Shown one piece after another: positions 15,481 through 53,620 of a DNA stretch of 64,000 nucleotides. This DNA is from Pisaster brevispinus (Eukaryota > Echinodermata > Asteroidea > Forcipulatida > Asteriidae), in contig JAMKCF010000001.1 of NCBI GenBank assembly GCA_023634235.1, positions 7,380,758-7,444,757 of the forward strand. The letters are read 5' to 3'. Under the pieces are notes generated by a model. It did not search any database. It was not told the origin of the DNA and worked only from the letters and a program-made list of their open reading frames with translations. A program made the position numbers and the translations under genes. Numbering within the stretch: the stretch's first letter is position 1; each line of letters opens with the position of its first letter.

Positions 15481-16235
15481 GCTACCCACAGTCTCCCTCC
15501 TCCTCAGCCACTACAACTCCTCACTGGCAACCCTGCTCAGAATTGGAAAAAATTTCAACAACGGTGGAGTAACTATGAAATGGCCACCGGTGTTGCTACT
15601 AAAGGTGATGCAATGAGAGTCGCCACATTGCTCACTATAATTGGAGATGAAGCAGTGGAACTGTATAACACTTTCAAGTGGACAACTGCTGGTGACGAAG
15701 TCAAAATCGCCATCGTACTGGAGAAGTTTGAAGAGTATGCCACTCCTCGAAATAATACGATTTAGGAGCGATATCTGTTCAACACCAGAAACCAAGAGAG
15801 TGGTGAACCTGTTGACAAATACGTCACAGCTCTAAATAATTTTTCCGCCACTTGTGACTACGGCGAACTCCGCGAGTCCCTAATCAGAGACCAACTTGTT
15901 CTCATGTCCGAGAGCGTCTGCTTCGTGAGTCAAAACTCGACCTGACAAAAGCCATTGATGTGGTTCGAGCGTCTGAAGCAGCGCAACAGCAGCTCCGTCA
16001 GATAGGCGGTGAAGAGGCAGTTCGTGCTGTACGACCACGTACCGGTACCGCACCAACCACGCCACAAAGCAGAGCACCCCCTCCTACTAAAGAGTGTCTC
16101 TTCTGCGGGCAAAGCCATCCAATGGAAAAGAGTAAATGTCCGGCATTTGGAAAAACTTGCAGCAAATGCAATGGAAAGAATCACTTTGCAGTGAAATGCA
16201 AATCCAAGAGAGCACCGCTCGCCAAAAACATCTGA
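15478..16235 (+). pseudogene. gag: Ty3/gypsy gag
   Basis: Gag forms the retrotransposon particle and binds its RNA. The start MATHSLPPPQPLQLL follows the primer site. The capsid-like part contains NWKKFQQRWSNYEMATG. Frame is lost near 15765 and regained in another frame. The C-terminal zinc knuckle is CSKCNGKNHFAVKC (C-x2-C-x4-H-x4-C), preceded by a variant knuckle CLFCGQSHPMEKSKC. It ends at a TGA at 16233, and pol continues in a different frame, as expected for frameshift-dependent expression, though decay could also explain the shift. Confidence 0.85.
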
Positions 16236-17671
16236 AACTTGTTGAGGCAGACGACGACGATGAGGATGATGAATACACCTACCAGATTGGCGCTGTTAAC
16301 AACCCGATGAAGGAGATCCCTAAACAGCTTTTTGCCACCATGAAGGTAAATGACTCTAAAAATATACGCTTCCAACTTGACAGCGGCGCTACTTGCAATC
16401 TCCTCCCTCAAAGTGACTATGCTAGAGTGATGGGTAACCCTTCCAATCTAACACTTCGAAAAAGTAAAGCCAAACTACGAATGTACAATGGTAGTTTGAT
16501 GCACCCTGTTGGCAAATGCACTCTTCCCTGCTCAAGGAACAATAAAACTCATGAACTTGACTTCCAAGTTGTTGATAAGGAAGTCACACCGATCCTCGGC
16601 GCTGAGACTTGTCAGCGTCTTCAGTTCCTCAAAGTGCTTGAGCATGACATATCCTATGACAACATGGTGAGCACAATCCATGTAGATACAAAGACACTCA
16701 CTAAAGAGCGCATCATGAAAGAATATGGTGATGTCTTCAAAGGCCTGGGATGTCTCCCTGGTGAGTACCATATTCAACTTGACCCTAACGTATCACCTGT
16801 TGTCCACCCTCCACGTAAAGTGCCAATGGCAATCAAGGATCAACTACGTCAAGCTATAGATGGTATGGTCCATGATAAAGTCCTCACTCCAGTAACTGAA
16901 CCAACAGACTGGGTATCCAGTCTTGTGACAGTCATCAAGCCTAACAAGCTGCGGATATGTATCGACCCTCAGCACCTGAACGGTCGCATTACCCTCTCCC
17001 AACTGTAGAAGAAGTAGCTACCAAACTGAGTGAAGCAAAAATTTGCTCAGTACTCGATGCCAAAAATGGGTTTTGGCAAGTCAAACTTGATGACGAATCT
17101 TCTCGACTCACCACCTTCAACACCCCCTTTGGCCGTTTCCGTTGGTTACGGATGCCATTCGGAATATTGTCTGCCCCTGAGGAATACCAGCGCCGAATGC
17201 ACGAAACTCTCGAATGACTAAATGGTGTATCTGTTATAGCTGACGATATACTAGTCTATGGTAAAGGTGACACTACTGAGGATGACCATGACCGTAATCT
17301 CCATGGAGTGTTGCAAAGAGCTCGACAATGCAACCTCAAGCTAAATGAAAGTAAGGTACGACTCCGACTCGCTGAAGTCCCATACATCGGACATCTACTG
17401 ACCCCTGCTGGCCTCAAGCCAAACCCCGCGAAAATGGAGGCAATACTCAAAATGCTCAACCCAACCGATGTTCCCTCACTAAAGCGATTTCTTGGGATGG
17501 TGACCTCTCTTGCCAAATTCTTCCCTCATCTATCTACAGTAACAGAGCCTCTGAGGAAATTGGAAAACAAAGATATCGCTTGGCACTGGTATGATGAGCA
17601 CGATAAAGCAATCTCAGACATCAAATCGCTCATCACCACCCATCCCGTACTTCGACACTATGATGTCACTT
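16236..17671 (+). pseudogene. pol: Ty3/gypsy protease and reverse transcriptase
   Basis: The protease active site is FQLDSGATCNLLP (about 16372-16410). RT starts near 16780. Catalytic boxes are CSVLDAKNGFWQ (first Asp, about 17045) and VIADDILVYG (Asp-Asp, about 17233). Thumb residues around YIGHLLTPAGLKPNP and KRFLGMVTSL follow. Breaks: a frameshift near 16990, a TGA at 17216 where Gly is usual, and a TAG at 17671. Confidence 0.9.
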
Positions 17672-18010
17672 AGGAAGTGACACTACAGTGTGATGCATCT
17701 CAATCGGGCTTAGGAGCAACCCTATTACAACTTGGACAGCCCGTTGCATTTGCCTCAAGGGCATTAACAAAACTATGCTCAAAACGAAAAAGAAATGCTC
17801 GCTATTGTATTCGGTTGTGAGCGATTTGACCAATATATCTATGGACGTGACCACAAACCTCTCGAGAGCATCATGACCAAACCTATACCCGCTGCTCCGA
17901 AACGACTCCAACGCATGATGCTCCGTCTGCAGAAATACTCGCTGACAGTACGCTATAAGCCTGGCAAGCTTATGCACATTGCTGATACACTGAGTAGGGC
18001 ATACCTGCAA
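17672..18010 (+). pseudogene. pol: Ty3/gypsy RNase H
   Basis: LQCDASQSGLGATLL supplies the first catalytic Asp (about 17684), then PVAFASRAL. After a frameshift near 17770 come FGCERFDQYIYGR and the end of the domain, YKPGKLMHIADTLSRA. It would degrade the RNA strand of the RNA:DNA hybrid during reverse transcription. Confidence 0.88.
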
Positions 18011-18289
18011 CGATCCCATACTCAGTCAAATGACAACTACGACGTTCGTCTGATGGATACAGACTACGATCTAATCCACGACATCGAGAAAGTGAACATG
18101 GCTCACAATAATGCTATCTCGGATGTTCGACTTGCTGAAATACGCACCAAAACGCATGATGACGCAGTATTGTGCACGCTAATGACCACTGTATATGAAG
18201 GCTGGCCAGAAAATCACACACAAGTTTGTGATAGTGTAAAGCCTTACTTCAACTTCAGAGATGAGCTCTCTGCCCAAGATGGAATTATA

Positions 18290-19513
18290 TTTCGCGGACA
18301 CAGTCATCATTCCTTCCTCAATGCGTCATGACATGATTGACAGATTACATACAAGTCACATTGGCATTGAAGGATGTCTTCGTAGAGCCAGAGATTTATC
18401 TACTGGCCCGATATGAATGCACAGATCAAAGACAAAATTGCATCATGTGGTACTTGCAACACATTCAGCCGCTCTCAAACCAAAGAGCCACTTAAACCAC
18501 ATGACCTCCCTGACCGCCCTTGGTCTACAGTAGCAGTTGATCTGTTCATGTTAAATGGCAAAGATTACACAATCGCGACTGACTACTACTCCAACTTCTT
18601 TGAGTTCAACACCCTCCCCTCTACACAGAGTTCAAATGTCATAACCTGCCTAAAGTCTTACTTTGCACGTCATGGCATTCCCGACACGCTCATCAGTGAC
18701 AATGGTCCTCAATTTCGCTCTGCAGAATTCCTGAACTTCACCAAACACTGGGACATTAAACATACTACATCGTCTCTACACTACCCTCAGTCTAATGGCA
18801 AGGCTGAAAATGCAGTGAAAACCGCAAAGTCGCTATTGAGCAAAGCGAAATTTGACCAACAAGATCCCTTCCTAGCCATACTTGATTGGAGAAACACCCC
18901 CACTGAAGGACTCGGATCCTCCCCAGCACAACGCCTCATGGGACGCCGAACAAAGACCCTGCTCCCCACTACGGTCACGCTCCTCAAACCTCAAATCTCT
19001 AGACAAGTCAAAACCAAACTTCAGGAAAACAGAGCCCAACAAGCCAAACACTACAACCGCGGTAGTAAGGAGTTACCTGAATTAACCACAGGAGATATAG
19101 TTCGCGTACAACCAAACAACGACACTAGCGAATGGAAACAAGGCACGTGCGTTCGCAAAGTTGCCCCTCGATCCTTTGAAATTGATATTGATGGACACAT
19201 CTACCGCCGTAATCGGAAGCATTTAAAGCTAACTAGTGAAAAGCGACCCTTGTTCCCATTCCCACTACCTTATGACGACATAGATACGCCCACTGATTTC
19301 ACTGACCCACCGCATGTCCCAAACGTAACTACTCCCTTAGAACCCAGTAACCCCACTATCCCGGAACCTGATGAACTCAAGCGACCCTCACGAGGACGAA
19401 TCCTCAAGCCATCCACCAAATATAAAGACTGTGTAAAGCCTCACACCACATTAAACAGTGTCCCAAATGCCTCATATAATAACTGCACTCTTATTTTATT
19501 GTACTATGTGTAG
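18290..19513 (+). pseudogene. pol: Ty3/gypsy integrase
   Basis: The HHCC zinc domain is visible as LHTSHIGIEGC and CGTCNTF, crossing a frameshift near 18404. The catalytic core has VAVDLFML (Asp, about 18534), LISDNGPQF (Asp, about 18691) and NGKAENAVK (Glu, about 18798). The C-terminal region contains a GDIVRVQPN-type SH3-like segment and a proline-rich tail. One open frame of 366 codons (18413-19513) remains intact from the zinc domain to the stop. Confidence 0.92.
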
Positions 19514-25364: not shown

Positions 25365-25732
25365 TTCCAATCTTTGGGGGTCAGGATAATGCAATCCTAA
25401 ACTTACCATTCAAGGTAGAAAGGGTTAACTGCAATGCCCTGTTTTCCTTCTCAGTTGTTTTATTTTCGATGAGAATTTTAGCGGGTTATTAAATCCTCTG
25501 TAAAGGGAATAGGCTATTGACAGGTTAATTTTAAAACTTCTTGAGAGAGAAAAAAGAAGTGTAGAGATGGACCAGTGGAAAGAACATGTAAATGACAGTA
25601 ACTGTATCTATTTTACATCAATGAAGTAAGCGAGAGAAAGAAGCATACAAATAGACCAGTGGAGAGAACATGTTATTTGTAGTTATTGTATTTATAATAA
25701 ATCGAAAGTGTAAGGAGGGTGATGGGGATTTA
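25365..25732. other. Unassigned spacer
   Basis: A loose repeat is visible: GGACCAGTGGAAAGAACATG at about 25569 and a similar AGACCAGTGGAGAGAACATG at about 25653. Nothing else recognised. Confidence 0.4.
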
Positions 25733-26205
25733 TTTAACACCGGTGTTTACGTTAAGTCCAAAGGGTTGGACTGTCTTGAGTTGGTGAATCCAGTGTGATT
25801 CTCTGAGTTTGCGGTGTGTGTCGTCACCATTGCAAGCCTCAATCACAATGAGTTCAACATCTTTGACGCTGTGATTGAGGCTGTTGAAGTGGATGGAGAC
25901 GGGGTACAGTTTCTTGGTCTTTATGGAAGAGACATGGTTCGCAAAGCGAAGACTGAGTTTGGTCTGAGTCTCTCCCACATACTGTAGTCCACATCTTTTA
26001 CAAGATATAACATAGACCACATTGGGTGTGCTACATAGGGAGTCGGTCTTGATATTGTAAGAAGAGCCAGTGCTATGACTCTTCACTTTAAGTGCAGCTT
26101 TGATGTAGAGACAAGTTCTACATTTAGAGCTGGTACACTTGTGACAACCCTGTATCTCTGTTGAGGGGGGAGTTTGGCCCTGACTAGAATGTCTCCCAGG
26201 TTTAA
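25733..26205 (-). pseudogene. Penelope-like element GIY-YIG endonuclease domain (C-terminal fragment)
   Basis: The minus-strand frame encodes a Cys motif (CHKCTSSKCRTCLYI) and then the GIY-YIG region: VVYVISCKRCGLQYVGET, the conserved Arg in LSLRFANH, HFNSLNHS, and a Glu in RESHWIHQL. It ends at a TAA near 25733. In Penelope-like elements this domain follows the RT and makes the integration nick. The RT is absent. The fragment is cut on its upstream side by an AT microsatellite at 26207-26240. The domain itself is open for about 155 codons. Confidence 0.88.
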
Positions 26206-26206
26206 A

Positions 26207-26240
26207 ATATATATATAAAAATATATATATTATATACGTT
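26207..26240. repeat. (AT)n microsatellite
   Basis: ATATATATA runs interrupted by AAAA, at the junction of the Penelope fragment and the next gene. Confidence 0.85.
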
Positions 26241-26253
26241 TTTTTAACAATCA

Positions 26254-29217
26254 GACTTGAGGACAATGCTGTGTGTATCAACAGTGACGAAGATGAAATT
26301 ATCCATGTAAGTAACAATACCCAACAATTATATTTCTCTGACATGATTTTCTTCAAATTGAACCAACACGGCTATGCAGTGTATTATGTTTTGAAAAATT
26401 AACATTTTAATAAATGGATCATTGTTATTAATATTATCATAAAGCCCACACAGCACTAGGTAATTTCGGAAGTGTGCTTTGCGTTTTGGTCACTCTGAAG
26501 ACAGACAGAATATCATTACATGTATGACCAGTTTCCTCACCATTGAGTTGTTATTAAAATGTGTTGTTAATATGTTCACAAAGGGTAATTAGAACACTTT
26601 AAAATGATACTTTTAACCACCAGGATGAGGATGATCGTGAAGCACAGATTGCAACGGACTTCAGTGACTTGGAATATGATGTTGCTGAGGATAGTGATGG
26701 CGTCCTCATCTTACTGAAGTAAGTTTTTAACGCTAGCAAATCTATTAATTCAAGCAAAATCATATTCACTGAAAGCGTACTCTCACACAAAAAATTTTGT
26801 TTCAATATATTTTTTAGAATCACCACCAGGATGAAGCAAATATTGCAAAAGACTTCAGTGACAGGGATCATGATAAAATCAATGACTTTCAAAATGATGT
26901 AAGTACCTGTAGGCCTACTTGCCAAATTTTGTTCAACAATAAGGTTGTTGTCTTGCTTGTAAAAAAAAAAAAACAGAAGGTATTTTGTGATGTATTGTGC
27001 CAACGACTTCATAATTGCCCAGCCTAAAAAGATTAACCTTAATGCCTGTAGTGTGGTATGGCAATAAAATTGATCCTTCAATAAGTACATGAGCTTGAGC
27101 ATCAACAGCAGTCCAGCATTCTTAATAGGAAAGTACACTCCTCAAAACTTTGAGATCCGTCTCACCCCTGGTCCTTCTCAGAAGCACCTCTTCTTGCTAT
27201 TACATGGTTGTTAGCCACAAACTAATTACTTTATGGTAGAGCTTGTAAACAAAAATAGTTATACTTTAGAATCATGCATTTTCGTAACTACTTTTTGTAT
27301 TGCAGGGTGATGATAAAGAGCTTTCTAGCGGTCAGTCCCAGTTGCTTTATGAAGAAGGAAGTGTCACTGCAGATCAGGCCAGTGTACTAATTTTGTCGTA
27401 TATTTTTAAACACAAAATTAGTGGAAAAGGTGAAGATGACTTGTTGCATATGCTGGGTATTCTTTTCCCAAACACTTTGCCCAAATCAAAGTATCTCTTT
27501 GTAAGGAAATATCAGGTGATATTAGAGGTTCACATGTTCACCTTGGTGGTGAGTGGTGTGGAAGTTGTGAATTGTGCCACACAGAAAATACCTTTAGAAA
27601 GAATGTTAAAGATGGGGTTTTCTTTGTATGTTTGCCACTCAAACCTGTATTCAAGTCGTCTAACTACTCTCTATGGCCCTTTCTGTGTATTGGGAATGAA
27701 CTATCCACACAGGAAAGAAAAAGAAATGTGCTTCTCACAGGTCTTTAGTTTGGACCAATCAAACATAAATGCATACGTTTCTAGAACCACTGAAAAAATG
27801 GAGTTCATGGTTGTGATTGGTGTTACCATCCTAGGAAGGTGGTTGAGAAAGGTAGAGGGCATGTACATTGCTACCCATTCATTGATCCAGAGCCAAGGCT
27901 TCGTTTTTGTGCATCTCATGAAACAGTATTGAGGCTGTAAATTCTAGGGAAAAAGTCAATGGTGTAAAAGGACCAAGCCTGTTGATGTTTTTCTCACTTT
28001 TCAACATTGTCGATGGCTTCACTGTTGATTATATGCACTGTGTAATGTTATGTGTTGTACGTCAATTTTGCTCACTTTGGTTCAATAGTGTTAATCACGG
28101 AGCTGAATGGTACATTGGTAGACAAGTAACAGAAGTTGACGCAAGACTACTTTCCATATCCCCCCCCCCCCCCCCACAAGAGTTAACTAGAGTGCCCAGG
28201 AGTCTCTCACAAAGAAAGTTCTGGAAAGCATCGGAATGGCGATCATTTCTCCTGTATTATTCTCGCCATATTCTTATGGGCGTTCTACCTGCTAGGTTTT
28301 TGAATGACTTCTTTCTTCTGGTGTATGCCATGTATGCACTTCTCCGGGAAAGAATCACACAGAGTTGACTTGGCGGATCTAGCATTGAAAAAGTTTGTGA
28401 TAATGACAGCATATCTGTATGGAAAGAAATATGTATCTTTCAATGTTCACCAACTTTGTCACCTGTCAGATAGCGTACAGCGATGGGGGCCTGCTTGGAC
28501 AGCATTTTAATTTCTTTTTGAAGGAAATAATCAGGTAATCTTAAAATTGATACTTAGTACACAGTGCATCCCACAACAAATTGCAGAGCGCTTTCAGCTA
28601 TACCGAAACACATTGCAGGTAGCAAAGCACTGTATGAGTAATGCAACATATGACTGTAAACAAATGCACAGAACGTTAACTCATAACGGTGCATGTATGC
28701 CTCACAATTTCATGGCTGTTGGGGACATGAAATTGTTTGGAAAGCCAATAAGTAAGCGACCAAATGTTGAAGACAGAGCTGCTATACAGGACCTTCTGTG
28801 AAGAAACTCAACTTAAAGTATTTTCTTAGATTTGAGCAACATGGCTTTCTATATAGCTCCAACAAATATCACAGGGCATCCAAGTGCAACAACACAGTAG
28901 CAGAGCTGACAGATGGTACTATAGGTGTTAACGATTCAATCATTTTGAATGCGCATGGATGTGCCTGTGAGGGATGTAACTGCAATTGTGTAGGAACACC
29001 TTTTGTTGTGTCAACTTGTTCTCGTGTAAGAAAGGTATTCCTACAGGATTACCAGTTACACATCAACTCAAAAGAAATGTATCTTGAAGTTGATAATGAT
29101 ATTGCTACCAGAAGGGCCATTTATGCCCATGAAATAAACAGAAAATGTGTTGTTTGTTCCAAAAGAGGGAGTTGCATGACAATATCTGGGCTACCAAATA
29201 GGTACGAAACTGACTAA
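26254..29217 (+). pseudogene. Tnp2/CACTA (EnSpm)-like transposase gene, multi-exon, broken
   Basis: Three small acidic exons with GT-AG borders are visible: 26254-26306, 26624-26718 and 26818-26898. A long exon starts at 27306 after TTGCAG. The long part has an N-terminal helical region (LLHMLGILFPNTLPKSK), then in other frames VNGVKGPSLL, DGFTVDYMHCV (about 28012), FWKASEWRSFLLYYS (28222-28266), LYGKKYVSFNVHQLCHL (28418-28468) and CIPQQIAERF (28565). The C-terminal part (28800-29217) contains CACEGCNCNC and NRKCVVCSKRG. This order matches the animal Tnp2-type transposase family. Frameshifts and stops near 27540-27930, 28366 and 28508, and a C tract at about 28162-28176, show decay. CACTA terminal repeats were not found. 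Confidence 0.7.
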
Positions 29218-35430: not shown

Positions 35431-35510
35431 TAATGTTTTTTTTATGAAACTGGAAGAGCTATAACTTAAGTTTGATGAGTTGGATATCGATGAGGATGAA
35501 GTATATATTA

Positions 35511-35650
35511 AAGAACTCAATCAGGAAGGGCATGGTGAATGCTACACTGAACAAAGACAAATGCAGTTTTAGACTAAGTGAAGAACTCAATCAGGAAGGG
35601 CATGGTGAATACTACACTGAACAAAGACAAATGCAGTTTTAGACTAAGTG
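35511..35650 (+). repeat. 70-bp tandem duplication inside pol
   Basis: 35511-35580 and 35581-35650 are identical except one base (GCTACACTG against ACTACACTG). It duplicates part of the RT coding region. Confidence 0.95.
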
Positions 35651-36010
35651 AAGTTAAATACTTCGGTCACATCTTGTCAGCAGGCAGCCTCAAGCCAAAT
35701 CCCGCCGAAATTGAAGCAATTAACCGAATAAAAGCTCCAAGTAGTAACAAACAAGAATTAATGCAGTTTCTAGGTATGCTGACGTTTCTGGCCTAATTCT
35801 TGAAAAGATTTGTCGGCTAAAACGGCCCCATTGAGGACGCTAATTGAAAAGGACATCTGAGCATATAACAGAGGTTTTGAAAAGCTCAGAAGTATGCTTG
35901 CTCAAACACCGATCCTGCAATGTAACGAAACCACTAGTCCTTTTAAGTTGTTGTGCTAGTCGTAAAGGAACAGGAGCAGTACTGCTTCAAGAAAACCTAC
36001 CAGTAGCTTA
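35581..36010 (+). pseudogene. pol: Ty3/gypsy RT thumb and start of RNase H, second element
   Basis: LNKDKCSFRLSEVKYFGH and the LKPNPAEIEAI and QFLGMLTFLA boxes are the RT thumb/connection of a gypsy element. Most of protease and RT is deleted between 35430 and 35560. RNase H begins near 35880 in broken frames and stops where the DNA transposon inserted at the TTA at 36008-36010. Confidence 0.8.
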
Positions 36011-36957
36011 GGCGCGCGGTAAATTTAGGGCCGGTTCGGCAACCGTCAAACGGTTGCCCAAAACGATTCATTTACAGAGCGCCAACCGTTTTGGTTTCGG
36101 CAAGCAATCGTTTCTCCGGGATTAAAGACAGTCGTTTGAGGCTTAACTCTGGTGACAGACAAAAGGAGTGCCGCTTGACTGGGGTTTACACCTAACAAAG
36201 GAGTTGTCTTGTGCCAGGCTATCACTGACACCTCTGCCGCTAATCTTTGCTAATCCTACACGGCCGGGAATGCTGGTAACGATGGTTGTGTATTGGATAG
36301 GTGCATGTACGCCCAGGTTGTAGCATTTTCTTCCCATTCATGAACTAATGGAGTTTTTTGGTCAAAACGGCTTTGAACATCTTGCTGCGAAATTTAAAGT
36401 TCGGGTTTCGATATCATTGTTTGAATTTTTGGTGAAACAATAAATATACATTAAATCTTGGTTTTGCCCTATTGGAACAGAAAATTAGTATTTACTCAAT
36501 AAAGGGGTTTATTATTGTCCGTTGTAGTGGCATTTCTTTGGTAACTCTTTTAGAAAAGGTTTAGGGTTATACGTATTTAACACATTTTAGAAGATTTTTA
36601 TTTGAGAAGAATAGAATTGAATTGTGCTTGCCGCACTTTTTTCTCAGCACGCCCAACACATTTTAATGTGGGCGCGATTTCGTCTGACCCTTCAGTGTAG
36701 TTTACGTGATTTGAATATTTTAGAATTCGAATTGTGAAAAATAAGACAAAATAAAATAAAAACTCTTACACATAGTGGTACTGCTGTGGAATAATTTATT
36801 TTGTTTCACTGCTGAATTTAAAAACAAAAGAACTTGGAACAATCATCAGGAAAATTTGATGGGAAAACATAAAATAATACAAAAACGGCAAAAAGTGCCA
36901 CATTTACTTGTGCACGCGGCCATTTCATTCCTAGTTTCTTTCCTGATTTAATTATTG
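36011..36957. other. Left terminal and subterminal region of the TTA transposon
   Basis: Terminal inverted repeat (36011-36056), further CAACCGTTT motifs to about 36100, then AT-rich DNA without coding sequence up to the stop of the minus-strand BEN gene. Confidence 0.7.
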
Positions 36958-37820
36958 TTAGTTAGGGTTTCCATCGAGCAGCCGTTTTCTCTGTTCGTAG
37001 CGGGCTCGCTTGCAGCATTCGTTGAGTGCTTCTACAGTCTTACTTTTAGAGTCTGTGTACCAGTCAGAAAACCCGGGAAATTGCATTTTGGTTTGATGGA
37101 AAATACAGTTGATGATGACTCTGTCGAGCTGGGGGATTTTGCACCGCTTGTTGTTCTCATCTCTAGAGTTCCCAGTGATATTTTTGATGGCCAGTTCGTC
37201 TTTTGGTATCTCTCTTTTCAAGAGGCAGACACAGAGCAGTTTCCCCTTTTCATTGTCAGATGCGTTTCGACGTCTTTGTTGAACTTTTCTCAACATAGTT
37301 TTGTAATCGGCTACGGAACGCACCATATTTTCACTTCCGCCAAGTAGATATGTGCCGGAATCAGGGCCCGCCATGAATTTTGCCGATTGCGGTTGTGACG
37401 GGGATGTGTCCACAACTGCCCCCACTGACGGCTCTGACGATGGCGCTGGGACTGGTCGCATAGACGAACGGGCTAGGATTGATGGAACTGATGCTAGGGA
37501 TGTAGTTGCTGGCTCTTCAAATATATCTGGGGAAATTTTTGAAGCCACGACTTTCACCATCTCCCGGAGTCGATCTTGTTTGATGGCCATGGCTACTTGC
37601 CTTGTCTCCATCTCGTCCTGTTTCCCTTGCATTGTCACCAGGCGGGACTGAATGTCACCAAGAATGTCAAGAATAAGTTCGGAAGTTTGTTCTTGGCGAC
37701 TCATCTGGTCATCGCCATGGAACATGCTAAGAACTTGCTTTCTGTTTTCTGTGAGGATCTGCTTTCTCAGACCAGCAAGTGCAACGTCATCATCTGAGTC
37801 ATCACTTTCAGTATCAACAT
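36958..37820 (-). CDS. BEN-domain protein of the TTA transposon
   Basis: A 287-codon open exon on the minus strand. It probably starts at a splice acceptor (TTCTTCACAG before 37820); an ATG at 37831-37833 is an alternative start. Order: acidic N-terminus (ESDDSDDDV), a Gln/Met-rich coiled-coil segment (ELILDILGDIQSRLVTMQ and onward), a Ser/Pro-rich linker, then about 90 C-terminal residues resembling a BEN domain: KLLCVCLLKREIPKDELAI, NITGNS, and PQLDRVIINCIF with a terminal KTVEALNECCKRAR helix. BEN domains bind DNA or mediate protein contacts in chromatin factors and some viral proteins. Here the gene lies inside transposon ends and may bind the termini. The frame is intact, unlike nearly everything around it. 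Confidence 0.65.
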
Positions 37821-38397
37821 CTGTGAAGAACAACGATTTGTTTATTTATACTATGGTAATGTTTTTAAAGTTTACTTTGTTGAAATATCACAGGCGGACG
37901 CAATTTGTATCAGACGATCACTTTCTAAGTTTGCTTGGAGTAGACTTCGAATTATAAATATAAATAAACTATTTAAAAAATCAGATTTTTTTTTTACACG
38001 AATTCCCAATGCCACACTATCACACGCTAGCATATTGTGTACAGCGGCTGGTACCCAGAAGTCAGCTATTTTGTAACGGCATAAAAGAATACTGTAAAAA
38101 TAAAGTGCTTGTGAACTTTATATTAAATACCTTTTCGTTTGTTGAAAGATCGGTCAATGCTGTCACAATCCAGAAGTTCATCGTGAGCACATTGGATGTA
38201 GATTAAATTAAATCTTGAAAGATCAAAGTTAAACTATCACACTAAAAACTCAAATATATACTTATTTAAGTGATTTTCTCCTCTTCAAATTTAGTCCTTT
38301 GCAATGCAAAGCTACATTCTTGTTTAGCCCTATTCGCGATCATGCCATATCCCCGCTTCGACCTAATCTGTTCCCGATTTCACCGATCAACCAACCC
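37821..38397. promoter_or_regulatory. Shared divergent upstream region
   Basis: About 580 bp of AT-rich DNA between the 5' ends of the minus-strand BEN gene and the plus-strand DDE-like gene. It must hold both promoters and any 5' exons. No TATA box or exon can be assigned with confidence. Confidence 0.35.
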
Positions 38398-39395
38398 ATG
38401 GAGGCATCAGCAAGTCCAATGTCAAGAAAACGGCTCTTTGATGAGGATACCTCTCAAGCACGTGGTACTTTGCCTCAAAAACGGGGTAAAAAGCCGTTGC
38501 ACGAAAAACATCAGAACCTTGTCCACAGGCTGTTTCCGAATGTCTTGTTGATCATGGTTTCGCAGCACATCGGAGGAGATCGGAAACCTGGTCATCTGTT
38601 GGTGTGACAGCACGGAGATTGACGAGTGAAGTTTCGGGTAGGCCTGAAGATTCCGACCTGCCAAAGTCAATCAGTGAAAGCTCCATCAAGCGCTTATTTG
38701 TTGCACCCCATAGTAGCCGCCATGCAAGCAATCGATACCACGGTGTTATTGATGCCAAAGTTGGCGTGAAGGCAAATGATGCATTGAAGGAAAACCCCAA
38801 TTCTCATTTTTGCCGAAGCTCGGTGAATTACGCTCTCGAGATGGCCACTTGTTTCGAAGATGAGGTGTCAGCATGGTCAGTAGACGACAAAAACAAACTA
38901 CTAGTAGGAGGGGGTCCATGTGTGGATAGAAGGATGTCTTTTAAATCTTACTTCATGAGAAACGACATGGTGCATTATCCAGACCATAATTTCGCAACTG
39001 GGTACAAAATTATACCAAGCGGGTACATGCAGCGTCTTCACCGGCCATCATCAAAACAACACGGCAAAACATCATCTCAAGAACCTCCGTTACCAGGCAA
39101 CCAGTGTCAGCTACCTACCTCAAAATATCGACATGACAAGCTAGGCCGTCAACTATCCCAGAACTGGTCCACTTTCCATCTATCTTCGGGGCAACAAGTT
39201 TTACAAAGCTTCCGTCTACACCATCATAAAGACCTCAAACATCTAATTCAAAGAGTCAACGAAAAAGATGGGAAATTTGCTGCCGTCATCATATCAGACA
39301 ATGGACCAGATTGGAAAAAGCACAGTTTGAAGGTAGTCCAAATGATTGGGCGACTTAGGCGTGATTTGAACCTTGACTACTTGGCAAATACATAA
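38398..39395 (+). pseudogene. DDE-like protein of the TTA transposon (frameshifted, C-terminally truncated)
   Basis: Start candidate is the ATG at 38398 (MEASASPMSRKRLF). Frame shifts once near 38600, between GGDRKPGHL and TARRLTSEVSG. The main frame runs 38604-39395. Features: an N-terminal helical region (SIKRLFVAPHSSRHASNRYH), then YALEMATCFEDE, VSAWSVDDKNKLLVGG with a candidate catalytic Asp, a GYKIIPSGYM stretch, then VIISDNGPDWKKHSLKVV with a second Asp, and it stops at DLNLDYLANT. As I recall, related multicopy invertebrate proteins continue with an Asn-x-Ile-Glu-His-Leu-Trp box that would supply the Glu; it is missing here. The DDE assignment is inference from the D...DNGPDW pattern. 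Confidence 0.6.
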
Positions 39396-39774
39396 CGCAA
39401 ACTGGTGGCTACGATCTCAGGTTATACTTTATCGTTTTTTATGATTAAAAGTAATATGTGTGGTAACTTTTGGCTAGCATTTTAGAAATATCAAAAACAA
39501 AGCGCAGTTAAGAAGTGTTAGGCATTTTAGTTTTGAAATTTATAATTACAGTCAGAGCTTCAACAACCACAGTTATAATCCCAACACAATGCACAGTAAT
39601 CCGATTATATCCTTTTTGTTCGGACTCTGGAGGACCAAATAAACTCAGCGCACTGAAGCATGGAATAAACCATCCCCAACCGTTTCACAAATGCTGCTGA
39701 ATCGTTTTTAACTTCAATCGTTTGTCAACCGTTTGACGGTTGCCGAACCGGCCCTAAATGGACCGCGCGCCTTA

Positions 39775-48359: not shown

Positions 48360-49275
48360 TTAAGCCAGGCTCCGAACCGAGCATAGATGCCCCACGCAGG
48401 TGTAGCATACACATCAAGCCCAAACTTGAGGCCGAACGGAACAAAATGGAGCACGATGAAGTAATTTGCCAAATCTCGCAACACACAGATTGGTGCGGCT
48501 CCCTTACGACAGCAGTCAAGAAGTATGGTTCTCTAAGGCTATGTCTCGACCCGAAACTCTTGAATGAGAGTTTGAAACGCTGTCCACACAAGATCCCCCA
48601 CCCTTGAACTCAACCCCGAGTTCTCACAGGCCAAATTCTTCTCGAAACTTGACGCAAAGGCCGGGTACTGGGCAGTCCAACTAGAGGAGCAGTCTCAGTT
48701 ACTAACCACATTTCACATACCCTTTGGTCGATTCAGTTTCCGTCGCCTCCCCTTTGGTTTATCCGTGAGCCAAGACGTGTTTCAGCAATGCATGAATGAG
48801 ATAATACAACAAGTGCCGGATGGTGTACGGATCGCTGATGACATTGCCGTCTTCGGCCGCACCAGACAAGAACACGAAAAAAATCTGCTAGCTCTCATGG
48901 AAACAGCTGAACGAGAGGGGCTGGTATTCAACAGTACGAAATGCGAACTAAAAGTCAACCAAATACACTTCTTCGGTTCCATCTACTCCAACTGTGGTGT
49001 CCGTCCTGATCCCGGTAGAGTTGCTGACATACATGCCATGCCGATACCTCAAGACAAGGAGGATCTCCAACGATTCATAGGCGTCGTGAACTTCATCTCA
49101 CCCTACATTCCCAATTGTGCAGACAAAGCTGCCCCACTGCATGATCTGCTTAAGAAAGAAGTTCCATTCCTGTGGCAGGAAAATCATCAGGCATCCTTCC
49201 AAGCCCTTTAGCATTCCATATCGCCAGTCTTGCCTCCATTTTTATGACCCCCAATCGGAAACCACCCTTACCATA
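48360..49275 (+). pseudogene. pol: Ty3/gypsy reverse transcriptase, third element
   Basis: RT resumes directly after the MITE: IDAPRRCSIHIKPKLEAE, TDWCGSLTTAVKKYGSLRLC, FFSKLDAKAGYW (catalytic Asp, about 48640), FRRLPFGLSVSQDVFQQ, GVRIADDIAVFG (Asp-Asp, about 48821), IHFFGSIYSNCGVRPDP and RFIGVVNFISPYIPN. The 148-codon stretch 48765-49211 is intact. A TAG at 49209 follows, and coding resemblance stops at about 49275, where the repeat-rich element begins. RNase H and integrase are missing. Confidence 0.88.
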
Positions 49276-49290
49276 AAAAACTGCTTATTA

Positions 49291-51983
49291 AGCAGTCTGT
49301 GAGCAGTCTGTGAGCAGTCTGTGAGCAGTCTGTGAGCAGTCTGTGAGCAGTCTGTGAGCAGTCTGTGAGCAGTCTGTGAGCAGTCTGTGAGCAGTCTGTG
49401 AGCAGTCTGTGAGCAGTCTGTGAGCAGTCTGTGAGCAGTCTGTGAGCAGTCTGTGAGCAGTCTGTGAGCAGTCTGTGAGCAGTCTGTGAGCAGTCTGTGA
49501 GCAGTCTGTGAGCAGTCTGTGAGCAGTCTGTGAGCAGTCTGTGAGCAGTCTGTGAGCAGTCTGTGAGCAGTCTGTGAGCAGTCTGTGAGCAGTCTGTGAG
49601 CAGTCTGTGAGCAGTCTGTGAGCAGTCTGTGAGCAGTCTGTGAGCAGTCTGTGAGCAGTCTGTGAGCAGTCTGTGAGCAGTCTGTGAGCAGTCTGTGAGC
49701 AGTCTGTGAGCAGTCTGTGAGCAGTCTGTGAGCAGTCTGTGAGCAGTCTGTGAGCAGTCTGTGAGCAGTCTGTGAGCAGTCTGTGAGCAGTCTGTGAGCA
49801 GTCTGTGAGCAGTCTGTGAGCAGTCTGTGAGCAGTCTGTGAGCAGTCTGTGAGCAGTCTGTGAGCAGTCTGTGAGCAGTCTGTGAGCAGTCTGTGAGCAG
49901 TCTGTGAGCAGTCTGTGAGCAGTCTGTGAGCAGTCTGTGAGCAGTCTGTGAGCAGTCTGTGAGCAGTCTGTGAGCAGTCTGTGAGCAGTCTGTGAGCAGT
50001 CTGTGAGCAGTCTGTGAGCAGTCTGTGAGCAGTCTGTGAGCAGTCTGTGAGCAGTCTGTGAGCAGTCTGTGAGCAGTCTGTGAGCAGTCTGTGAGCAGTC
50101 TGTGAGCAGTCTGTGAGCAGTCTGTGAGCAGTCTGTGAGCAGTCTGTGAGCAGTCTGTGAGCAGTCTGTGAGCAGTCTGTGAGCAGTCTGTGAGCAGTCT
50201 GTGAGCAGTCTGTGAGCAGTCTGTGAGCAGTCTGTGAGCAGTCTGTGAGCAGTCTGTGAGCAGTCTGTGAGCAGTCTGTGAGCAGTCTGTGAGCAGTCTG
50301 TGAGCAGTCTGTGAGCAGTCTGTGAGCAGTCTGTGAGCAGTCTGTGAGCAGTCTGTGAGCAGTCTGTGAGCAGTCTGTGAGCAGTCTGTGAGCAGTCTGT
50401 GAGCAGTCTGTGAGCAGTCTGTGAGCAGTCTGTGAGCAGTCTGTGAGCAGTCTGTGAGCAGTCTGTGAGCAGTCTGTGAGCAGTCTGTGAGCAGTCTGTG
50501 AGCAGTCTGTGAGCAGTCTGTGAGCAGTCTGTGAGCAGTCTGTGAGCAGTCTGTGAGCAGTCTGTGAGCAGTCTGTGAGCAGTCTGTGAGCAGTCTGTGA
50601 GCAGTCTGTGAGCAGTCTGTGAGCAGTCTGTGAGCAGTCTGTGAGCAGTCTGTGAGCAGTCTGTGAGCAGTCTGTGAGCAGTCTGTGAGCAGTCTGTGAG
50701 CAGTCTGTGAGCAGTCTGTGAGCAGTCTGTGAGCAGTCTGTGAGCAGTCTGTGAGCAGTCTGTGAGCAGTCTGTGAGCAGTCTGTGAGCAGTCTGTGAGC
50801 AGTCTGTGAGCAGTCTGTGAGCAGTCTGTGAGCAGTCTGTGAGCAGTCTGTGAGCAGTCTGTGAGCAGTCTGTGAGCAGTCTGTGAGCAGTCTGTGAGCA
50901 GTCTGTGAGCAGTCTGTGAGCAGTCTGTGAGCAGTCTGTGAGCAGTCTGTGAGCAGTCTGTGAGCAGTCTGTGAGCAGTCTGTGAGCAGTCTGTGAGCAG
51001 TCTGTGAGCAGTCTGTGAGCAGTCTGTGAGCAGTCTGTGAGCAGTCTGTGAGCAGTCTGTGAGCAGTCTGTGAGCAGTCTGTGAGCAGTCTGTGAGCAGT
51101 CTGTGAGCAGTCTGTGAGCAGTCTGTGAGCAGTCTGTGAGCAGTCTGTGAGCAGTCTGTGAGCAGTCTGTGAGCAGTCTGTGAGCAGTCTGTGAGCAGTC
51201 TGTGAGCAGTCTGTGAGCAGTCTGTGAGCAGTCTGTGAGCAGTCTGTGAGCAGTCTGTGAGCAGTCTGTGAGCAGTCTGTGAGCAGTCTGTGAGCAGTCT
51301 GTGAGCAGTCTGTGAGCAGTCTGTGAGCAGTCTGTGAGCAGTCTGTGAGCAGTCTGTGAGCAGTCTGTGAGCAGTCTGTGAGCAGTCTGTGAGCAGTCTG
51401 TGAGCAGTCTGTGAGCAGTCTGTGAGCAGTCTGTGAGCAGTCTGTGAGCAGTCTGTGAGCAGTCTGTGAGCAGTCTGTGAGCAGTCTGTGAGCAGTCTGT
51501 GAGCAGTCTGTGAGCAGTCTGTGAGCAGTCTGTGAGCAGTCTGTGAGCAGTCTGTGAGCAGTCTGTGAGCAGTCTGTGAGCAGTCTGTGAGCAGTCTGTG
51601 AGCAGTCTGTGAGCAGTCTGTGAGCAGTCTGTGAGCAGTCTGTGAGCAGTCTGTGAGCAGTCTGTGAGCAGTCTGTGAGCAGTCTGTGAGCAGTCTGTGA
51701 GCAGTCTGTGAGCAGTCTGTGAGCAGTCTGTGAGCAGTCTGTGAGCAGTCTGTGAGCAGTCTGTGAGCAGTCTGTGAGCAGTCTGTGAGCAGTCTGTGAG
51801 CAGTCTGTGAGCAGTCTGTGAGCAGTCTGTGAGCAGTCTGTGAGCAGTCTGTGAGCAGTCTGTGAGCAGTCTGTGAGCAGTCTGTGAGCAGTCTGTGAGC
51901 AGTCTGTGAGCAGTCTGTGAGCAGTCTGTGAGCAGTCTGTGAGCAGTCTGTGAGCAGTCTGTGAGCAGTCTGTGAGCAGTCTG
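49291..51983. repeat. 11-bp satellite array (AGCAGTCTGTG)n, about 245 units
   Basis: 2,693 bp of an 11-bp unit. By eye I find no variant until the last unit (CTGTAAGCAGTC at about 51981). The unit length is not a multiple of three and the reverse complement contains no stop triplet, so all three minus frames are open. The 913-codon minus frame here (RLLTDCSQTAH repeated) is therefore a by-product, not a gene. Confidence 0.97.
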
Positions 51984-53620
51984 TAAGCAGTCAACTGCCA
52001 GGCAGTCAAATATAATTATTAAGCAGTCTATAAGAAGCTGGGGACAATGAATGCTTCATAAGCAGTCCAAAAGCAGGCATTTGAAGTCGAAGTCGTTTTC
52101 ATTGGCAGTCGTGAGTAGTCGTTGGATAATTAAGCAGTCACAAAACCCACAACTTTTTCAGGTAAGCAGTCGAAGGCACTTTCTAAAGAGTTGAAGGCTT
52201 AGGGGGCTTACAACTGCAAACTCCTGTACATATTCATGAAGGCTTATGTACACCAAGGTCACTCAAGAAGTGTAACTTGACACTGTCCATTGCATAACAT
52301 TTCCTGTGTGGTAAGTTGGAATTCTAGCACTCATATTGAAAGTGCAATGGCTACTGGAAGCTGCTTGTGTAGGAGGTGTTGGTGTGTAGGTTTTTGTACC
52401 ACAATTTAATATGTTAATCACTTGCAAGCAATGGAAGTTATACTCTATACTCAGTGGAAACTAAATAAGACAATAAAGAAACAAACATGACCAGAACATG
52501 GAAGATTGATCAGAATTATCATGGATTGGTAAGCTGTTTATGTATAGTTAGTACAATAGAGATGTATGTAACTACTACTAAAGATTCTGTGTGTCAATAT
52601 CACTTTGTTTTTGTCAATGGAGCATGGGGGAGAGTATTTTCCTTTGATGATGGAGAAGCCATGGATTTGTTGCTCATCAATATGAAATGTATTAATCATG
52701 GAGGTACACTGAATTCTTCCATACATACTAAAATGTTTTATTTTACTTTTTAATGTGAAAACAATCCCAGTCGACTCTCGTTACAACTAAGGTCGCTGGG
52801 ACTGGCCGATAAATGAGCTCTTATAATAGGGTCGACAGGAAAACAAATAACACAAAGCAGAAATGAGATTCAGGACTCTAGAATGTACTCTTTATAAGCA
52901 GAACATATTTAGAGCACTGCTCTTTATAACAAGAGCTGACTGTTTATTTTTGGACCTTGTAAGACATCAGCAAAGTCTGTCCTGAAAAAAGGAACATTTG
53001 ATTCTTAAGCTGGCCAAATTGCTCACAATCAAATGGAAAGACATTTATTTTTATCAGTATGCATCTTTATATGAATGATGGTCTCTTCCATGGCTAGGAG
53101 TGTGTGGAATTCACGGTATATTCTTTACTCACACACAGCTTGCACAGAAATTCAAAGCTTTTTGCCCTGTAAGCGAAGAATGGTGGTCGCAAGTGAATAG
53201 AGCTTCATTAAGACAGTAAACTGCAAGCCTTCATAGAAAGTTAGTAGTCAACTGCTTAATTTTAGAGCTTCATTTAGACAGTCAACTGCTTAAATAAAGA
53301 GCTTCAATTAGACAGTCAACTGCTTATTAAGCCTTCATAGAAGTGGCAAAACTGCTTAAATAGAGCTTTAAGCAGCCTCTACGACTGCTTAGCGTAAAAT
53401 GAAGGCTCAGCTCATTTGCATTTTTCGTCTGTGGGAAGGCTTAGCGAATGATTATAGGGCTTCGAAGGCCTATTGAGCCTTCGAAGCCCTATTCAAAACA
53501 CATGAAGACAAAAATTTGACTACCAAAAAAAATGCTTGTTAGACTGCCTATATGACTGCTTATTTGACTACTTATCGACTGCTTAATGAAGGCCTTCACT
53601 TCGGTAAGGGCAGTCTCCAT
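51984..53620. mobile_element. Repeat-rich element with oppositely oriented AAGCAGTC motif clusters
   Basis: From 49280 to about 52180 AAGCAGTC or TTAAGCAGTC occurs in plus orientation, with extra scattered copies at about 51984-52170. From about 53210 to 53620 the inverse GACTGCTTAA recurs, partly as 40-50-bp units (AGAGCTTCATTTAGACAGTC). This looks like inverted subterminal repeats of a DNA transposon, with the satellite as an expansion of the left cluster. The middle (52180-53200) has no recognised protein. Exact ends and target duplication were not found. Confidence 0.55.

Follow-up and report, generated by a model that had tools for sequence, protein, structure and literature searches.

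Zator is presented as a eukaryotic DDE transposon, kin to the bacterial ISAzo13/TP36 elements and with a 3-bp target site duplication (TSD), in the accessible parts of two papers (PMC10045372, PMC7386202), the first of which states that Zator resembles ISAzo13 and that both produce 3-bp duplications. BEN-domain proteins are known for roles in repression, insulation and chromatin (PMC11472053, PMC6911014), and BEN genes are also known in bracoviruses and chordopoxviruses (PMC4574769), as far as the accessible sections of these sources go. Here, we describe an element at positions 36011-39771 of a 64,000-nt stretch of the starfish Pisaster brevispinus (assembly GCA_023634235.1, contig JAMKCF010000001.1, 7,380,758-7,444,757 of the forward strand), this whole stretch being called the window. 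Taken as a whole, the data are best explained if the element is a decayed copy of a clade of two-gene cut-and-paste DNA transposons that combine an ISAzo13/Zator-type transposase with a BEN-domain gene, a reading that we consider likely. In the literature searched, consisting mostly of titles and the beginnings of abstracts, neither such a partnership nor any transposon-encoded BEN protein was found described, although a description held in databases alone is possible.

Element ends and insertion site

The near-perfect 46-bp inverted ends of an original prediction, made from the letters of the window, were recovered as 52 nt with 92% complementarity (36010-36061 and 39721-39772), a length that counts one duplication base per side. 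The TTA that it had read on both sides was found as well (Table 1), the junctions being CTTA followed by GGCGCGCGG at the left and CCGCGCGCC followed by TTATG at the right. Within the window, the 20-nt core of the terminal inverted repeat (TIR) has two matches with at most 3 mismatches, both of them the element ends, against a shuffle mean of 0.00 (n=100). The boundaries and the duplication are fixed by the interrupted sequence, presumably of Ty3/gypsy type judging from its motifs: the flanks, read by eye, give ...QENLPVA on the left and YASKAFTKT on the right, and the frame runs on across them if one of the two TTA copies is removed. As an alternative limit of the TIR, the inner GGGCCGG was rejected, because the outer inverted sequence is common to independent copies with different flanks.

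Copies and target site duplications

Element copies have moved with both genes. In the same 550-Mb genome (G000), five copies (L036-L040) share 99.6-99.8% identity along the aligned element (about 7.0 kb, or 6.3 kb for L039, whose retrieved sequence is cut short), and their homology ends at the element ends, beyond which the flanks differ. All five have an open transposase frame of 638 aa, and the BEN frame reaches 337 aa in four and 214 aa in L036. A second family (L041, L042, L043, L046, L047, L048) measures 7.2-7.7 kb in the three members retrieved with both ends. The larger copies with both ends number 11, namely ten of the 20 transposase loci examined (see below) and the window; their 3-bp duplications are identical in nine and differ in L037 (ATA/TTA) and L045 (TAA/TGA). 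Among the nine, L040 has TAT and the other eight TTA or TAA.

Besides, the left end of the window element has at least 24 further long matches in this genome, at 83-96% identity. From a sample of 20 left-end loci, 16 short copies remain once the window and three loci without a second end are set aside; identical flanking triplets, all TTA or TAA, were found in 15 of them, L019, with its tandem arrangement, being the failure. Three loci of the sample (L020, L021 and L022) have the same flanks, two lying on contig C27 and one on C22, and are probably duplicated segments rather than separate insertions. It is thus well supported, by family and duplications, that a DDE transposase acts on these ends with a 3-bp stagger.

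Transposase and its relatives

The original prediction had placed two divergent genes inside the element, and both were found, but the plus-strand DDE-like frame is broken and stops at 39386. The window copy retains the first D in SVDDKNK and the second D in ISDNGPDW. Of 291 candidates searched with the conserved window stretch, seven proteins matched with E no higher than 10, namely P0009-P0014, which have 587-672 aa, and P0015, which is shorter; the identity of P0009 to the query stretch is 89%. Across the aligned P0009-P0014, the first D stands in SVDDKNK or SADDKNK, the second in DNGPDW (DNGSDW in P0011) and the third acid, absent from the window copy, in NM[IV]EH (E387 in P0009). The proposal that the D...DNGPDW protein is the transposase, and that longer versions should carry a third acidic residue, is thereby supported, as it also is by the kinship with ISAzo13 set out below.

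The right-end block of the element is whole in 5/6 short copies compared, and left of it these five have a common sequence unlike the window. An intron was rejected as the cause of the missing transposase C-terminus: because the five short copies agree left of the junction whereas the window differs, the window copy has lost this part by deletion.

The transposase open reading frame (ORF) of the window has no match in Pfam, NCBIfam or, by sequence, the PDB. NCBIfam likewise gave nothing for the transposase proteins P0001 and P0002, and in the PDB sequence search alignment A3 had no match and alignment A1 gave weak unrelated rows alone. The structure model of P0009 (mean pLDDT 43.7) is too poor to judge an RNase H fold, and its Foldseek rows were uninformative. 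Searches of viral contigs with P0005, the TIR core, alignments A3 and A1, P0009 and P0014 yielded no confirmed relative; those of genome contigs with A3 gave 108 pattern matches, none confirmed, and those of plasmids with P0014 no match.

Relation to ISAzo13/Zator

Among 14 transposase proteins or pieces, P0014 matches PF07592 (DDE_Tnp_ISAZ013) above the curated Pfam cut-off, five (P0010, P0011, L037, L041, L053) match weakly, each time within the D2-E part of the profile, and eight have no match (window ORF, P0001, P0002, P0009, P0012, P0013, P0015, L049). A PF07592 search of the own genome returned nothing, but the controls likewise gave nothing. Seven bacterial ISAzo13 loci were obtained and six of their transposases aligned. 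Profile-profile comparison with this set gave E 5.8e-6 and 2.7e-6 (hhalign probabilities 85 and 89%), and the whole-profile score of 54.8 exceeds the maximum of 60 column shuffles (21.5), as do the D2-E half alone (37.4 against 22.6) and the N-terminal half alone (42.6 against 22.7). The D2-E spacing is also close, with 43 residues in P0009 and 42 in the bacterial L001. Because of this transposase kinship and the 3-bp duplication, the element appears from its sequence to belong with ISAzo13/Zator, Zator being compared by description rather than by reference sequences. The undescribed and distinct element type of the original prediction is therefore not upheld, since transposase and duplication fit a known kind.

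Differences nevertheless exist. PF07592 scores 346 and 458 bits in two bacterial proteins versus at best 28.5 here, and the annotation around the seven bacterial transposases, to which this search was confined, shows no BEN gene. Compared with Zator, the TSD here is TWA in nearly all cases and a divergent BEN gene usually accompanies the transposase, no BEN gene being mentioned for Zator in the accessible text (PMC10045372, PMC7386202). The group could be a eukaryotic superfamily of its own, derived from the ISAzo13 stock separately from Zator, a question of classification compatible with the explanation favoured here. Such a status is suggested by the weak PF07592 similarity of most members, the constant second gene, the D1-D2 spacing (140 residues in P0009 versus 92 in L001) and a CxHC motif in the tail of 6/6 full-length relatives and 0/6 bacterial proteins. 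However, the two features that the available part of its description (PMC10045372) gives for Zator are a 3-bp TSD and kinship to ISAzo13, and we regard independent descent as possible but somewhat the less probable classification.

The TWA duplication alone, with TTA or TAA in 15/16 short and 8/11 larger copies, would suggest a PIF/Harbinger-type element with diverged genes. Harbinger elements also have a two-gene layout, with a Myb-like partner protein. Despite this fit, such an origin was rejected on transposase family and is highly improbable: both halves of the transposase can be aligned with ISAzo13, and the partner has a BEN fold instead of being Myb-like. In general Pfam scans, made without a direct Harbinger profile comparison, no Harbinger-type row was obtained for the 14 transposase proteins or pieces and no Myb row for 11 partner proteins, which agrees with the earlier remark that the genes look unlike those of PIF/Harbinger. 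That remark had been accompanied by the reservation that the genes would be passengers if other copies with these TIRs carried a Harbinger transposase and no BEN gene; none of those examined does, and the 19 short-copy loci contain no recognisable piece of either gene (tblastn with P0009 and P0003).

The BEN gene and its protein

The main exon of the second gene is open for 291 codons from TTG. Upstream of a likely intron, LDCDSIDRSFNKRK aligns weakly to MDCGSSEPAFNKHR of the starfish protein P0005 (E 3.4), with place, strand and phase all right. The BEN gene, predicted as fully open, is so for its main exon; the statement does not extend to the whole gene, because this exon begins after a likely splice acceptor and a likely upstream exon ends at 38131.

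The structure model of the protein is clearly matched to the BEN fold by VIA-align, and Foldseek with the same model places BANP first (E 0.75). At the sequence level, the best match to Pfam PF10523 (BEN) reaches 22.4 bits, below the cut-off of 23.2, and 7/11 partner proteins were matched at all. Going by its model, the protein would thus share its fold with the host proteins BANP, NACC1, BEND3 and Bsg25A, from which it differs in being transposon-encoded and in a sequence under the Pfam cut-off. A helix at residues 44-100 of the partner is taken as a probable coiled coil, which would reproduce the order of coiled coil and BEN domain reported for BANP, whose oligomerisation is required to select unmethylated CGCG according to the accessible part of the source (PMC11472053). 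Bracovirus BEN genes inserted in Lepidoptera also place BEN in a mobile or transferred setting; however, their carrier is a parasitoid-wasp bracovirus, they have three exons and up to 1200 aa, and no transposase partner is mentioned in the available text (PMC4574769). Phages searched with the BEN protein gave no match.

Pairing, matched divergence and constraint

The genome contains at least 74 transposase matches in 47 loci, of which 20, picked mostly from the top of the list, were examined. In 15/20, the transposase gene has a BEN gene upstream of it on the other strand, and diverged BEN-like partners in L050 (hhalign score 35.8 versus a maximum of 19.3 in 60 shuffles; Pfam BEN E 0.13) and, by reading, L053 bring the count to 17/20. 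L049 retains the front part of an L050-type partner gene, and no BEN partner was seen in L052 and L054. Conversely, 25 BEN loci were found with the window protein: 19 lie at most 3.2 kb from a transposase match and six have none within 5 kb; of the 47 transposase loci, 19 have such a BEN match. The expectation that intact copies carry both genes is consistent with these counts and with L037-L040, in which both frames are open, and the two genes are not found mainly apart.

As a separate observation, L049, L050 and L053 represent a more diverged transposase lineage, whose diverged partner keeps an acidic DSSDDDD/SDDSDDD start; the second D stands in VDGEPDW in L050 and VDGGPDW in L053, by eye nearer the bacterial DGGGSN. 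Another concerns L056 (L056:1-1501 = G000:C3:5096300-5097800), where a 400-aa frame of the BEN family contains short internal repeats; there is no transposase match closer than 5 kb, and the locus is a relic or possibly a host-adopted copy.

Pairwise protein distances of both genes at 8 loci are correlated (r = 0.94, reached in 5/5000 permutations), a value to which two groups of close copies contribute. Constraint was computed on six BEN pairs: dN/dS is about 0.15 for window-L045 and 0.12 for L037-L041, where synonymous sites approach saturation; in two between-family pairs dS is saturated and no ratio results, and L041-L043 are nearly identical. For the transposase pair L037-L041, dS is saturated and dN is 0.21.

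These data bear on the alternative that the BEN gene was captured from the host and rides as a passenger in this copy or family. The six BEN loci without a nearby transposase would fit this, one of them (C3:5096850, in L056) having the 400-aa open frame. Yet a BEN or BEN-like gene occurs in 17/20 loci, with transposases that share 34-43% identity with the L037 one (70% in the case of L041), and a passenger gene was rejected because of this linkage, the matched divergence and the constraint on BEN, leaving it very improbable. Weighing against the two-gene transposon itself, and slightly lowering our confidence in it, are the matches to DUF5725, the caution that the VIA-align tool itself attaches to Z, and the BEN dN/dS of about 0.5 in the within-family pair L041-L048.

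End repeats and possible role of the BEN protein

The motif AAYCGTTT, picked after viewing the ends, occurs 8 times in the whole window, each time within about 110 bp of the element ends. The total is unremarkable (4.5 expected; 8 reached in 6/100 shuffles), and it is the placement that stands out. Positions of the right array counted from the right end are the same in 5/6 short copies, L026 having 2/4 motifs. In 3/5 related families (L036, L041, L045), CpG-containing 7-mers particular to each family recur at the ends and are missing from the middle, counts that partly reflect the TIR itself, which is present twice; the repeated motifs of L044 are C-runs or are found in the middle as well, and there are none in L053. 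CGCGCG occurs in the tips of the window family and not in those of families 1 and 2.

From its constancy, its fold and these repeat arrays, the BEN protein is most likely the element's own DNA-recognition subunit. In such a model, the transposase (587-672 aa in full-length database relatives) would cut at the inverted ends and insert with a 3-bp stagger, mostly at TWA. The divergently transcribed second gene, inherited with it, would supply a coiled-coil and BEN-domain protein, oligomers of which may bind the CpG-containing repeats lying no more than about 110 bp from the ends and thereby direct the transposase either to the ends or towards unmethylated DNA. Binding to the end repeats, contact with the transposase and a need for BEN in transposition are what we infer.

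The main rival is that BEN is an element-encoded regulator, a repressor or anti-silencing factor acting on a shared divergent promoter or on host chromatin, outside the transposition machinery. Known BEN proteins do act in repression, insulation and chromatin, as far as the accessible text reports (PMC11472053, PMC6911014). Besides, the likely upstream BEN exon (38131) and the transposase match (38284) lie within about 150 bp of each other, and one BEN-bound promoter could therefore serve both genes. However, the AAYCGTTT repeats are in the two ends and not in the intergenic stretch, and we judge a purely regulatory protein rather unlikely, a regulatory role being still compatible with this placement.

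Other features of the window

Elsewhere in the window, all three minus-strand frames of a long array at 49242-52055 are open, with ...LLTDCSQTAHR... as a recurring peptide; the array is simple tandem-repeat DNA and not a gene. Frames at 25730-26371 and at L052:2971-3366 have a common ...VGETQTKLSLRFANHVSSIKTKKLYPVSIHFN... stretch, which we take to resemble the GIY-YIG endonuclease end of a retroelement. A fairly open pol region, presumably Ty3/gypsy-like, is spread over several frames at 16136-19513.

Table 1. Features of the element and its insertion site (window coordinates)
Feature	Position	Strand	Basis
Decayed Ty3/gypsy (presumed) reverse transcriptase-RNase H coding sequence, left part, insertion target	35472..36010	+	ORFs, reading frames
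TSD TTA, left copy	36008..36010		Sequence and frame of interrupted Ty3/gypsy element
Left TIR, begins GGCGCGCGG	36011..36061	+	Inverted-end comparison
Left array, four AAYCGTTT motifs (36048-, 36061-, 36084+, 36106+)	36048..36113		Motif scan of window
BEN-domain gene, main exon (long helix, then C-terminal BEN domain); stop 36958-36960	36958..37820	-	ORF
Likely BEN intron, 310 nt, GT donor, AG acceptor	37821..38130	-	Inferred from sequence and N-terminal part of starfish P0005
Likely upstream BEN exon; 3' boundary 38131, 38200 approximate	38131..38200	-	Weak alignment to P0005
Broken transposase gene	38284..39386	+	tblastn match to residues 3-372 of 619-aa P0009, frames 1, 3, 1, 3
Deletion junction; coding for residues 373-619 (with third acid) missing; right-end block common with short copies starts here	39384..39386	+	tblastn, short-copy comparison
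Right array, four AAYCGTTT motifs (39678, 39700, 39716, 39727)	39678..39734		Motif scan of window
Right TIR	39721..39771	-	Inverted-end comparison
TSD TTA, right copy	39772..39774		Sequence

Implications

Other transposon domains have become host regulators. Tentatively, and with less likelihood than its absence, one may envisage a separate eukaryotic two-gene superfamily in which BEN is an obligatory end-recognition subunit, perhaps sensing unmethylated CpG like oligomeric BANP, and which would be a possible source of animal BEN-domain genes. If the two-gene reading is true, the ISAzo13/Zator group would gain a second, conserved gene, and BEN domains, described in the accessible literature in host chromatin factors and viruses, would gain a home in DNA transposons. 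Since one genome has near-identical copies in which both genes are open, the part played by BEN in transposition and a gating by end methylation are directly testable, and the pairing further points to an origin, itself open to testing, for some animal BEN genes.
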